From Paenibacillus sp. MMS20-IR301 (GTDB taxonomy: Bacteria; Bacillota; Bacilli; Paenibacillales; Paenibacillaceae): a DNA stretch of 64,000 nucleotides. The notes beneath the pieces are model-generated. The model saw only the letters and a program-made list of their open reading frames with translations, searched no databases and was not told the DNA's origin. Below, in pieces: positions 293-4,196 of this stretch. Location of the stretch: the NCBI RefSeq assembly GCF_032302195.1, contig NZ_CP135275.1:2170001-2234000 (forward strand). Reading direction: 5' to 3'. Position 1 is the stretch's first letter. Each line of letters starts with the position of its first letter. A program made the position numbers and the translations under genes.

Positions 293-321
293 TTGAAGCT
301 GTCGGTAAAATATAGTAATTT
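293..321 (+). promoter_or_regulatory. putative sigma-A promoter of the Met-rich gene
   Basis: TTGAAG at 293-298 and TAATTT at 316-321 are separated by 17 bp. The match to consensus is moderate, and the position fits a short leader before the ATG at 363. Confidence 0.5.
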
Positions 322-362
322 ATAAAGTGTAATCTATTATAACTTGAGAGGTGGAGCTAACA

Positions 363-575
363 ATGGAAAAAATGTGTATGGAAATGATGATGAATATGTG
401 CATGGAAGACATGATGTGTAAGATGAACAACATGAAGATGTGCATGGAAATGATGACAAAGATGGGCATGATGGACATGGATATGGACATGATGATGAAG
501 AAAATGCAGGAATGCGATGAAATGATGACAATGTGCATGACCATGATGCGTGAAGGAATGCAAATGTCCAAGTAA
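363..575 (+). CDS. methionine/cysteine-rich small protein, putative metal-binding
   Basis: This gene encodes 70 residues, of which 33 are Met and 6 are Cys. Four MCM tripeptides lie at residues 4-6, 12-14, 26-28 and 57-59, with many MxM and MM pairs between them. The rest is almost only E, D, K, N, T, G and Q; there is no Leu, Ile, Val, Ala, Phe, Tyr, Trp, His or Pro. A GTG at 351 is in frame, but GAGAGGTGG at 346-354 is placed to serve the ATG at 363. A promoter lies upstream and a terminator at 655-689. Thioether and thiol clusters are known Cu(I) and Ag(I) ligands in CopA/PcoA-, CusF- and Ctr1-type Met motifs, so soft-metal binding is a reasonable inference. With no signal peptide it should be cytosolic. 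I recognise no family. Confidence 0.8.
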   Translation: MEKMCMEMMMNMCMEDMMCKMNNMKMCMEMMTKMGMMDMDMDMMMKKMQECDEMMTMCMTMMREGMQMSK

Positions 576-592
576 GCAGCAAGCAAGCTGGT

Positions 593-617
593 AAAGTGAA
601 TCCGCTAAATTCACTTT
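593..617 (+). terminator. stem-loop after the Met-rich gene
   Basis: AAAGTGAAT at 593-601 pairs with ATTCACTTT at 609-617 around a 7-nt loop. It lacks a strong U tract, so it may be a 3' stabiliser rather than the main terminator. Confidence 0.4.
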
Positions 618-654
618 AATTCTTAATCAGGCAAAGTATTCGTAAGCCGCAAGT

Positions 655-689
655 CATGGCAGAGCAGACTAACTGCATGCCATTTTTTT
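655..689 (+). terminator. Rho-independent terminator of the Met-rich gene
   Basis: ATGGCA at 656-661 pairs with TGCCAT at 678-683, an inner CAG/CTG extends the stem, and seven T follow. The orientation is plus. Confidence 0.65.
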
Positions 690-1214: not shown

Positions 1215-2666
1215 CTACATCAGCTTTTTGATATCATCCTTAATTTGCTCGGATTGCGGTCCGAATACGATTTGCACCGCACCCTGTCCGAGTCTCATTA
1301 CACCGGATGCCCCAAGCTGCTTCAGCGCAGCATCCTTTACTGCCTTCTCGTCATTGACGTTAAGGCGCAGACGGGTAATGCAGGCATCGATGCTGCGGAT
1401 ATTTGCCGGGCCGCCAATGTTTTCGAGAATTTTGGCTGCTCTGGAAGAGGCGGATACTTTTCCTCCGTCTTTAGCGAGATCTATAGTTTCATCATCTGTG
1501 TCATCTTCACGGCCCGGTGTTTTGAGCTTGAATTTGACGATGATGAAGCGGAACAGCACATAGTAGAGAACGAAGAATCCAAGACCTACAGGAATAAGCA
1601 CCCACGCATTCGTGGACAGCTTCATATTCAGCAGGTAGTCAATCAGACCGGCAGAGAAGCCAAAGCCCAGCTTCACATCCAGGATATACATCAGGAAGCC
1701 GGCGAAACCGGTAAGCAATGCATGAACCAGGTACAGCGCAGGTGCAAGGAACATGAAGGAGAATTCAAGCGGTTCAGTAATCCCTGTCAGGAACGAGGCA
1801 ATTGCAGAGCCGATGAAGATCGAAGCAACCATTTTCCGTTTTTCAGGCTTGGCAGTATGAATGAAGGCAAGGGCCGCACCCGGCAGGGCGAACATCATAA
1901 TCGGGAAGAACCCTGTCATAAACATTCCGGCAGATTTATCTCCGGCGAAGAAGCGCCACAGATCGCCGTGAACCACTTCTCCGGCTGTATTAGTGAAGTC
2001 ACCAAGCTGGAACCAGGCAATGGCGTTAATAACATGATGCAGACCAAATGGAATCAGCAGGCGGTTGGCCGTACCGAAGATGAAAGCGCCTACAGCTCCA
2101 AGGCCGACAACCCAGGTACCGAAGTCACTGATCACATCTTGAATCGGGCTCCAGACCATACCTACCAGTACTGCCAGAACCATTGTTGTTACGGCTGTAA
2201 TAATAGGGACAAAGCGTTTACCTGCGAAGAAGCCGAGCCAGTCGGGCATCTTGATATTATGATATTTCTTGTACAGGAACGCTGCCCATGCTCCGGCGAA
2301 GATCCCTCCCAGTACACCCATGTTAAGCTTCACATCGTCGCCGATAAAGGGCATTTGTGCCGGAATCACCTTGAGGATGCTGTCAAGAATCTGATAAGCG
2401 ATAAGTGCCGACAGGGCAGCTACTGCGTCCCCGGCAAAGCCGATCGCTACCCCGATAGCGAAGATCAGGGCAAGATTGCCGAAGATTGCTCCGGCGCCTG
2501 CATTCAGGAACGGTGCGACATACTGATTCAGGAATCTGCCGGCCGCCCCCATATGGAAGTCCTTCTCGTAATTGATCAATGCGAATCCTTGCAGAATTGC
2601 TGCTGCCGGCAATGTGGCTACCGGAAGCATTAGAGACTTACCTAGTTTCTGTAAAAAAGCTAACAT
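1215..2666 (-). CDS. nagE: N-acetylglucosamine-type PTS EIICB permease
   Basis: The 483-residue protein should import and phosphorylate an amino sugar at the membrane, taking phosphate from the EIIA encoded upstream. The N-terminal 380 residues are a hydrophobic EIIC domain with segments close to those of NagE as I recall it: LALIFAIGVA, FGLHHVINAIAWFQLGDFTN, FFPIMMFALPGAAL and FLTGITEPLEF. A linker with LKTPGRED leads to the EIIB domain, where the phospho-accepting Cys sits in DACITRLRL. No EIIA domain is fused, unlike the E. coli protein. Glucose cannot be excluded as a substrate from sequence alone. It is the last gene of the operon and is followed by a terminator. Confidence 0.88.
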   Translation of the reverse strand: MLAFLQKLGKSLMLPVATLPAAAILQGFALINYEKDFHMGAAGRFLNQYVAPFLNAGAGAIFGNLALIFAIGVAIGFAGDAVAALSALIAYQILDSILKVIPAQMPFIGDDVKLNMGVLGGIFAGAWAAFLYKKYHNIKMPDWLGFFAGKRFVPIITAVTTMVLAVLVGMVWSPIQDVISDFGTWVVGLGAVGAFIFGTANRLLIPFGLHHVINAIAWFQLGDFTNTAGEVVHGDLWRFFAGDKSAGMFMTGFFPIMMFALPGAALAFIHTAKPEKRKMVASIFIGSAIASFLTGITEPLEFSFMFLAPALYLVHALLTGFAGFLMYILDVKLGFGFSAGLIDYLLNMKLSTNAWVLIPVGLGFFVLYYVLFRFIIVKFKLKTPGREDDTDDETIDLAKDGGKVSASSRAAKILENIGGPANIRSIDACITRLRLNVNDEKAVKDAALKQLGASGVMRLGQGAVQIVFGPQSEQIKDDIKKLM

Positions 2667-2711
2667 AATGAAATCATCCCCTCGGTTTCATAATAGGTAT
2701 GCTATATGATT

Positions 2712-3221
2712 TTATTGCTGTGAAACCACTGTAAGTATGCTGTTTACCCCTGCAGCGACAGAGCCGTAATGGCCATGAACTGCCGGAACCGGGTCCCCGT
2801 TACTGGTGACTATAACCGGTGTAATTGTCCGGTAGCCGGCTGCCCGGATGGCCTCCAGATCGAATTCAATCAGCGTCTGGCCGGCTTCGACTGTATCCCC
2901 GTTAGCAATATGGCTGGTGAAGCCGCTTCCTTTCAAGCTGACTGTGTCAATGCCAATATGCATCAGCAGCTGCAGTCCGGATGGATGCTCAAGGATGACT
3001 GCGTGGCTGCTCTTCACAACATGGGCAATAGTTCCGCTAAAGGGGGCAATCAGCCGGCCCTCTGCCGGCTCGATTGCAATACCCTGACCCATATGTCCTC
3101 CGGCAAACGTCTCATCCGGTACCTCGGATAGCTCAACTGCCTGCCCGCTGACCGGAGCGAATATTTCAATGCTGGTCACAGCATGTTTCTCTTCTTTTTT
3201 GGATTTCCATCTGGAAAACAT
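2712..3221 (-). CDS. PTS EIIA, glucose family
   Basis: This 169-residue protein is a free-standing Crr-type EIIA that carries phosphate from HPr to EIIB. The active-site His lies in LLMHIGIDTV, and IFAPVSGQAVELSEVPDETF near the N terminus is typical of the fold. The start is set at ATG 3221, 8 nt after AGGAG; an upstream in-frame GTG at 3230 has no usable site. It lies 45 bp before nagE and 21 bp after the antiterminator gene, so the three form one operon and together make a complete sugar-specific PTS. Confidence 0.88.
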   Translation of the reverse strand: MFSRWKSKKEEKHAVTSIEIFAPVSGQAVELSEVPDETFAGGHMGQGIAIEPAEGRLIAPFSGTIAHVVKSSHAVILEHPSGLQLLMHIGIDTVSLKGSGFTSHIANGDTVEAGQTLIEFDLEAIRAAGYRTITPVIVTSNGDPVPAVHGHYGSVAAGVNSILTVVSQQ

Positions 3222-3242
3222 ATCATTCACTCCTATCCGCTG

Positions 3243-4109
3243 CTATTTGTTTTTCTCTATGGTCTGGAATAACCGGCGCAGATGCATTGCGAGGAAGCAC
3301 ATTTCTTCTTCCGGCACCTCTACACCGAGTTTGCCCTGCATGATCGTCCCCATCTTCCGGGCTAGCTTGTATTCATCCTTATATTCCTTCTTGATATGCT
3401 TCACGAAGGGGTTATCAATAAGCGAACCCTGCAGAATCCGCTCGATTGAGAATCTCAGATGAATCATCAGCCGGACATGATTCATGCTGCCCTGTTCAAA
3501 ATTAATATTGCGTTCACTGCGGATCATATCCATCAGCTCGCTTACAATATTGGAGGCTTTGACGAGTTGGCCGACCGGTACGTTGCTGACCGCAGAGTAT
3601 ACGTGGTAAGTAAGAAAACCCACCTCATCCTCCGGGATTTGCAGTCCGAATTCAGCACTGATTTTCTCCGCCGCCTTGTAAGCGATCTCAAATTCCTTAG
3701 GAAATGTCATTCGGGTTTCCTCAAGAAACGGATTGACAATGTCCATCCCGCCCCGCAAACGGAAGATGGTAAACTGGATATGGCTGGGGAGCGCCAAATA
3801 GATTTTGTCGTTTAACTTGCCGGGAAACTCACGGGCGATATCTGCAATGATGTCATCTGTTATCTTCATTACTTTGGGATCAATGTCTTCCAGCAAAATC
3901 TGATATTGGCTCCATTCTTCCCGGTCCTCCAGCCGAAACAGCTTCTCGATCCGGCTGTCATTTCCGTCAATCACCCCTGAGTCTTTGACCGCAAATCCGA
4001 TCCCCTTGCCAATGATTACGTACTCCTTGCTTTTCTTGCCTCCCTGAACCATTACGACGTTGTTCCCAATCACCCGCAGAACCTGAAATTGTTCATTTTC
4101 CCTCGCCAA
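3243..4109 (-). CDS. glcT: GlcT/LicT-type PRD antiterminator
   Basis: The 288-residue protein binds RNA and prevents termination when its sugar is present. The N-terminal about 60 residues are a CAT RNA-binding domain (VLRVIGNNVVMV, then VIIGKGIGF). Two PRD domains follow, with candidate regulatory histidines in LPSHIQF, LTYHVYSAV, MIHLRFSIER and LAMHLRRLF. I chose TTG at 4107-4109 because AAGGAGG lies 7 nt before it; the longer ATG frame starts inside the leader terminator. It is first in the operon. The RAT and terminator upstream mean it should act on its own message. The name follows B. subtilis GlcT, though the linked permease looks GlcNAc-specific. Confidence 0.88.
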   Translation of the reverse strand: MARENEQFQVLRVIGNNVVMVQGGKKSKEYVIIGKGIGFAVKDSGVIDGNDSRIEKLFRLEDREEWSQYQILLEDIDPKVMKITDDIIADIAREFPGKLNDKIYLALPSHIQFTIFRLRGGMDIVNPFLEETRMTFPKEFEIAYKAAEKISAEFGLQIPEDEVGFLTYHVYSAVSNVPVGQLVKASNIVSELMDMIRSERNINFEQGSMNHVRLMIHLRFSIERILQGSLIDNPFVKHIKKEYKDEYKLARKMGTIMQGKLGVEVPEEEMCFLAMHLRRLFQTIEKNK

Positions 4110-4148
4110 GTTCTCCCTCCTTTCCATCCATTGCCCTAATTTTCGCAC

Positions 4149-4196
4149 AAAAAAGAGCCAAGACTGACTCAAATGAATGAGATCAGATCTTGGCTC
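4149..4196 (-). terminator. leader terminator (attenuator) of the PTS operon
   Basis: On the minus strand, GAGCCAAGA pairs with TCTTGGCTC, an inner stem extends it, and six T follow. It lies between promoter and glcT, so it should cut off the whole operon by default. Confidence 0.85.

Follow-up and report, generated by a model that had tools for sequence, protein, structure and literature searches.

SmtA and MymT are bacterial metallothioneins, and the ligands of PcoE and SilE are His residues. The M domain of SRP54 consists of Met-rich amphipathic helices with a flexible hydrophobic face that holds hydrophobic helices, and MrpX, a Met-rich peptide of the periplasm that is associated with a Met-sulfoxide reductase, reportedly has a role as an oxidant sink. 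The present analysis concerns a gene for a 70-residue protein consisting largely of Met (the Met gene and Met protein), located at positions 363-575 (+ strand, stop codon included) of a 64,000-nucleotide stretch of Paenibacillus sp. MMS20-IR301 (contig NZ_CP135275.1, 2,170,001 to 2,234,000), hereafter the window. The described system on which its proposed function is modelled is Csp3, which PMC5171941 presents as a cytosolic copper storage protein, a four-helix bundle lined with Cys. By analogy with Csp3, the Met protein may act in the cytosol as a ligand protein that holds Cu(I)-like ions through thioethers and thiols, a reading to which we assign a probability of about 0.38.

Both proteins are small and occur in Bacilli, and a cytosolic, all-helical protein with a sulfur-ligand interior, as solved for Csp3, is proposed for the Met protein; whereas Csp3 is a bundle of 108-133 amino acids (aa) with Cys ligands, the Met protein is a predicted 70-aa hairpin with thioether Met. 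No Pfam DUF326 match and no Protein Data Bank (PDB) relative were obtained for it with profiles at E up to 10, and a two-helix hairpin with 5-7 Cys (30 loci) is predicted rather than a Cys-lined four-helix bundle. Like the bacterial metallothioneins treated in PMC7558416, the Met protein is small, extreme in its content of sulfur residues and probably cytosolic; unlike them, it uses Met instead of Cys and is predicted to be helical without metal, and no metallothionein profile matched it; in its family, Cys makes up 6.4% versus 44.4% Met. The same source describes PcoE and SilE as small periplasmic metal sponges. With these, the Met protein shares its small size and many soft-metal ligand residues, but it has no His, and no hydrophobic N-terminal stretch indicating export was seen by eye (a signal-peptide program was not run). 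In PMC12131726, the only mention is in the title of a cited PcoC paper. The literature searches, which were not exhaustive, yielded no described family of such Met-rich proteins, and nothing in Pfam, NCBIfam, PDB or Rfam corresponds to the Met protein or the RNA of its locus, in line with the statement in the original prediction, made from the letters alone, that no such family was known. In the libraries searched, the protein, its predicted all-sulfur core, the RNA element and the partner gene treated below match no described family.

Translation of 363-575 gives 33 Met, 6 Cys and four MCM motifs among the 70 residues, with A, V, L, I, F, W, Y, P and H all missing; this is the composition, free of aliphatic and aromatic residues, that the original prediction had reported. 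The expression signals to which it had pointed were likewise found. These are a ribosome binding site, GAGAGGTGGAG, at 346-356 (+), 6 nt 5′ of the ATG, with AGGTGG at 349-354 and a G-rich stretch at the matching site in orthologs; a promoter at 293-321 (+), comprised of TTGAAG (293-298), a 17-nt spacer and TAATTT (316-321), with a TATAG box at 311-315 immediately 5′ of the latter; and a terminator-like stem-loop with a T tail, i.e., a G+C hairpin plus T-run, at 658-689 (+), 3′ of the gene. Beyond that prediction, the 293-321 box proved to be specific to the Met gene, the 3′ hairpin a conserved RNA element, and the gene at 755-1087 (−), referred to as the partner, a constant neighbour.

It is near certain that the Met gene and its family are real. 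Taken together, 123 pairs of close orthologs, not independent since they have genomes in common, gave 1036 synonymous single-base third-position differences and a dN/dS ratio of 0.037; strong purifying selection is indicated. The frame was open in all 30 loci first fetched (28-33 Met and 5-7 Cys per protein), the window's own among them, although these were the best matches of a single-sequence search and shortened copies exist elsewhere. The open frames and the dN/dS ratio rule out an artefact of ATG-rich repeats, as the original prediction had argued. A His-rich protein encoded on the opposite strand, where ATG becomes the His codon CAT, was also ruled out: 5 of 15 loci disrupt its frame, and it is the plus frame that is under selection and is therefore taken to be the gene.

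With the single-sequence query, matches at E ≤ 1 were obtained in 39 of 100 genomes of the genus (own genome included), of which 33 had whole-length matches at E ≤ 9e-13 and the other six partial or chance-level ones. The query matched 92 of 394 genomes and 11 of 19 genera in the family, and a profile matched 111 of 392 genomes and 23 of 49 genera in the order, a few of these matches being partial. In a sample of the class, 21 of 398 genomes matched, four from outside the order and one from another family within it. Two protein database searches returned 7 and 23 family members, every source-named one labelled 'hypothetical protein', including those of Saccharibacillus sacchari, Paenibacillus campi, a Cohnella, Aneurinibacillus tyrosinisolvens and Priestia megaterium. 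Set against the 111 genomes of the order, these numbers mean that family members are hardly ever annotated, and that standard annotation overlooks both the gene family and its RNA element. Counts out of 95 Met loci given below refer to a set that omits duplicates (L032-L034 and L076-L095 except L085), L074, L075 and eight extra Met loci found among partner loci. As far as sequence comparison goes, the gene, the family, the hairpin and the linkage to the partner are established.

Remnant Met genes were found at L252 (34 aa), L208 (30 aa), L075 in genome G093 (37 aa) and L135 in G075 (18 aa). In some genomes, only helix 2 of the protein, or less, is left; L252 and L208 retain helix 2, and the loss of helix 1 in shortened genes may have occurred through repeat slippage. 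The remnant loci L075 and L135 retain the promoter and hairpin(s). One genome, G074, has two Met genes, on contigs C26 (L015) and C1 (L085), the second with a hairpin and without an adjoining partner.

The conserved elements in 73 dereplicated members are C13, C51, the motif QxCDE and most Met positions, with Cys51 present in 73/73 and Cys13 in 70/73. As to the search for homologues with the MCM spacing, proposed at the outset, relatives occur in Paenibacillus and allied genera; the spacing itself is not the conserved feature, as the C27 column holds 36 Cys versus 35 Met, the C58 column 35 Cys versus 38 Met, and C5 is Cys in just 44 members.

A larger set of 97 distinct members, without the truncated L252, L070 and L073 and without identical proteins, contains 44.4% Met, 6.4% Cys and only 1.3% Val, Ile and Leu together. 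Its 33 Met-majority columns hold 305 non-Met cells, which are sequences rather than events and in the loop are poorly aligned: Cys 88, Thr 38, Lys 33, Gly 32, Ser 25, and Ile, Leu and Val 34 in total. As a control, 92 Met-majority columns of 13 neighbouring gene clusters (partner included) gave 80 replacement cells, with 66 Ile, Leu or Val and a single Cys. Cys was seen at least once in 7 of the 33 columns; in a smaller set, with 187 replacement cells at Met columns (42 Cys, 23 Ile, Leu or Val), Cys replaced Met in 2 columns. Cys is a frequent replacement although the change from ATG to TGY requires three base changes. Because Leu, Ile and Val are rare and Cys is frequent at these columns compared with the controls, it seems likely that sulfur itself is under selection, and here the scarcity of aliphatic replacements counts for more than the frequency of Cys. 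Such a sulfur-specific constraint fits a soft-metal or an oxidant role, and it opens the idea of a Met-based metal store in the cytosol, or of some other function specific to sulfur, to direct testing.

The oxidant role would be that of a sink, in which peroxide or hypochlorite would convert Met to the sulfoxide and methionine sulfoxide reductase (Msr) would restore it, shielding other cytosolic proteins. The 44% Met with few aliphatic substitutes over the 97 members would suit this function, which has reportedly been assigned to a periplasmic Met-rich peptide, and the Met protein resembles MrpX in being small and very rich in Met. A sink, however, should tolerate the reordering of residues, yet single positions (C13, C51, QxCDE) are nearly fixed and the dN/dS ratio is 0.037. 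Unlike MrpX, the Met protein has position-specific conservation, no secretion signal by eye and no msr as fixed neighbour: the sole neighbour in a fixed place is not a known Msr, most other neighbours being unannotated. We regard an oxidant sink as improbable.

The fold predicted for the Met protein by AlphaFold2 from 44 sequences is a two-helix hairpin (helices 2-33 and 41-69; mean pLDDT 85, pTM 0.54). In helix 2, Met and Cys positions follow helical periodicity (p 0.0004, permutation), and from this and the confidence of the model, Met and Cys probably form the buried face of the hairpin. The claim that such a protein cannot have a normal hydrophobic core does not agree with this prediction, the periodicity being confined to helix 2 (helix 1, p 0.30, permutation). 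If the model is right, a helical protein that lacks aliphatic and aromatic residues altogether would offer a test, provided by nature, of the extent to which a protein core can be built from thioethers alone.

A flexible, Met-lined hydrophobic face might instead hold hydrophobic helices in the manner of the SRP54 M domain, which the protein resembles in its Met-rich amphipathic helices; the partner would then be a client or co-chaperone. The periodicity of helix 2, the hairpin model and the constant helical partner, which adjoins in 91/95 loci, speak for client binding. Met faces that are merely hydrophobic should, however, drift to Leu, Ile or Val, which account for just 34 of the 305 replacement cells, and conserved Cys would be unexpected. 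In contrast to SRP54, the window protein has no aliphatic residues, has conserved Cys, and shows neither a GTPase domain nor a profile match. A client binder is thus considered unlikely, if less so than an oxidant sink.

With regard to the Csp3-like reading, the distribution of Csp3 itself provides a comparison. Csp3 genes were recognized as DUF326, which we take to be the Csp family; in agreement, the one DUF326 gene compared with PDB matched BsCsp3 (5fig) at 8e-31, and the six genes read encode 13-19 Cys each. They were found in 33 of 100 genus genomes (cut-off 1e-5; all 33 matches at 8e-7 to 9e-6), namely, in 2 of 33 genomes with an intact Met gene versus 31 of 67 others (Fisher p 3e-5). 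Two of the four genomes with remnant Met genes, G075 and G093, have Csp3, and on a tree of partner proteins, G093 (truncated Met gene, Csp3) lies beside G006 and G040 (intact Met gene, no Csp3). This apparent exclusion is a lead, not proof, and the test is weak.

Several observations weigh against a Csp3-like function. Thioethers bind Cu(I) more weakly than thiolates. Since the Csp3 cut-off lies right at the matches, weaker copies may be missed; at this cut-off, 36 of the 67 genomes in which no Met gene is intact also lack Csp3, as do the remnant carriers G050 and G061, and G092 and G025 have both genes. On the tree of 44 partner proteins (one per genome), which has some long, unsure branches, the Csp label takes 5 changes, its clustering is not above shuffles, and G037, the sister of G075, has neither gene; moreover, the species are related and not independent. 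Helix 1 lacks the periodicity of helix 2, and a Foldseek search with the model of the Met protein found no similar solved fold. A metal operon context was not supported either, only the partner keeping a fixed place and other neighbours being mostly unannotated. At one locus outside the order (L207), a PepSY_TM gene and a YtkA-like gene below the Pfam cut-off were too weak to be used, and the rest of the L207 and L204 contigs gave nothing for a metal context.

If the Met protein does work like Csp3, its two amphipathic helices would probably pair with a second hairpin, or with the partner, to give a four-helix bundle around a channel whose walls carry thioethers and a small number of thiolates. 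This channel would bind Cu(I)-like soft ions, buffering or storing them as Csp3 does with thiolates. The protein would be translated from a short mRNA transcribed from a sigma-A-like promoter; the 3′ hairpins of this mRNA may determine how stable it is or may be recognized by an RNA-binding protein, for which the partner is a candidate. A broader proposal, that the family represents a new class of cytosolic metal store, is doubtful, though slightly less so than client binding; such a store would be a folded helical bundle with a thioether core, evolutionarily interchangeable with Csp3, controlled by a new family of mRNA 3′ hairpins with the GA/A internal loop, and assisted by a helical partner of its own. 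It would occur across Paenibacillales and in other Bacilli, and would have escaped notice because gene callers pass over it.

The promoter box is shared by most Met loci. T[AG]TAGTA, a pattern chosen after inspection, was present upstream in 66/95 loci, compared with a mean of 5.7 and a maximum of 13 in 200 shuffles; ten loci with extended frames were scanned over a longer stretch. In 51 of the 66, a TTGAA-like box lies at a gap of exactly 13 nt, a spacing not built into the search; two more have gaps of 8 and 14 nt, and 13 lack the box. The promoter reads as a sigma-A type with a TRTAG box and an unusually strict extended -10. The exact box, ATATAGTAATTT, has two copies in the own genome, the second within a gene; as it was not seen before another gene there, a regulon sharing this box was not supported.

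The RNA element at 656-689 (+) has the structure GGCA-GA-GCAG-ACTAA-CTGC-A-TGCC, with T7 (683-689) after the hairpin (656-683). In its relatives, a nearly fixed 5′-GA/A-3′ internal loop lies between two stems that change together. In 34 hairpins, 8 of 9 pairs have two-sided changes, a count biased by the selection of these hairpins by pairing. The stems also covary in 33 distinct hairpins found by a model at loci from other families that were unused in building it; their alignment was fitted to the model's own structure, and one of five measures, the number of further pair types, was not above shuffles, 110 of 500 of which matched it. Taking only model matches below E 0.01, the hairpin lies downstream of the Met open reading frame (ORF) in 81/95 loci (63 single, 15 double, 3 triple); no match was found downstream in 14/95, including all five Saccharibacillus-type loci and all four outside the order. 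One locus (L244) has an extra hairpin at 2942-2966, 5′ of the conserved part of the Met ORF, in addition to one behind.

The own genome contains a single strong model match (E 9e-8; next 0.04), and in 16 other genomes, all 13 matches below E 1e-3 sit at Met or partner loci, so a regulon sharing the hairpin was not supported. Rfam returned two matches far below the gathering score for the window locus and none for five loci. Another hairpin, GTGAAT-CCGCTAA-ATTCAC, lies closer to the gene at 592-618 (+); the fold of 573-700 has a z-score of -1.97, and 6 of 200 shuffles fold as well. Hairpins of this GAAT-loop-ATTC kind recur by eye, without quantification, in many 3′ regions of relatives.

The element also occurs where the Met gene is incomplete or absent. 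Forty strong partner loci were read, 39 from genomes without a Met match in the family search plus L159, a second partner copy of G039. Eight have a diverged Met ORF and two have remnants (L129, L135); nine further loci keep H2-type hairpins (six by a strict finder, three by eye), and the remaining loci have neither. H2-type hairpins without a full Met ORF were thus recorded at L131, L135, L141-L144 and L148 by the strict finder and at L129, L136, L138 and L140 by eye; at L148, they persist behind the promoter box TATAGTAT. As the hairpin outlasts the ORF in several loci, it is probably more than a terminator. To the left of the partner gene in L141-L144, arrays of two to three GA/A hairpins follow a TATAAT-like box without any Met ORF, an arrangement suggestive of a small RNA gene that is either a leftover or independent of the Met gene.

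These loci raise the question of whether the locus mainly produces an RNA, regulatory or dual-function, that acts through its 3′ hairpins and for which the Met ORF is optional. Besides their persistence, the hairpins covary, and 39 of 102 have no T-run behind them. Against this stand the strong selection on the protein (dN/dS 0.037) and the 14/95 loci that keep the ORF and in which the element was not found; such an RNA is about as improbable as the oxidant sink.

The convergent partner gene occupies 755-1087 (−), 110 codons in the window; a start at 1069 is likely because many relatives start there. ORF clustering identified it as the lone neighbour recurring at a fixed place across genera (50/60 loci). 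By profile, 90 of the 91 adjoining partners are convergent, and the other, at L203, is upstream on the same strand; the four loci without it are L085 (the second copy in G074), L204 (contig end), L205 and L207. The product is a helical protein of 104-110 aa with the motif DDYLDLLNYA..I.D..WQ and invariant L, D, A, W and R positions, for which AlphaFold2 predicts four helices (pLDDT 88). No Pfam or NCBIfam family reached its cut-off for the window's partner, and no PDB relative (best E 0.09) or Foldseek match (best E 0.8) was obtained. A weak NCBIfam match to CdsZ (E 0.0086) in 1 of 16 members led to no useful paper, and one database member carries the label FliT. Relatives of the partner, short-motif matches counted, were detected in 386 of the 394 genomes of the family. 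The partner is thus much more widespread than the Met gene and exists independently of it.

Because both genes are small and stay linked while their surroundings vary, the Met protein and the convergent partner might also be taken for a pair of the toxin-antitoxin kind. However, the full Met ORF is missing at 32 of the 40 strong-partner loci (one of which, L159, is the second copy in G039), and the pair is chromosomal in its own genome, between ordinary genes; this explanation is very improbable.

Part of the partner motif, DYLDLL.LA..IGD..W...I, is found again in two further ORFs of this genome, L217 (C1:5411412-5411516) and L220 (4155788-4155922), a 47-aa ORF and a 135-aa Cys-pair protein that carry the partner's N-terminal motif, which may be a recurrent small helical module. 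On the partner side, the pair is adjoined by a sugar operon of ordinary type, with PTS EIICB, EIIA and a PRD/CAT antiterminator at window positions 1215-4172 (−). Upstream of the window, at L001 1-1178 (−), lie divergent genes that resemble those for an ECF sigma factor and its anti-sigma protein.
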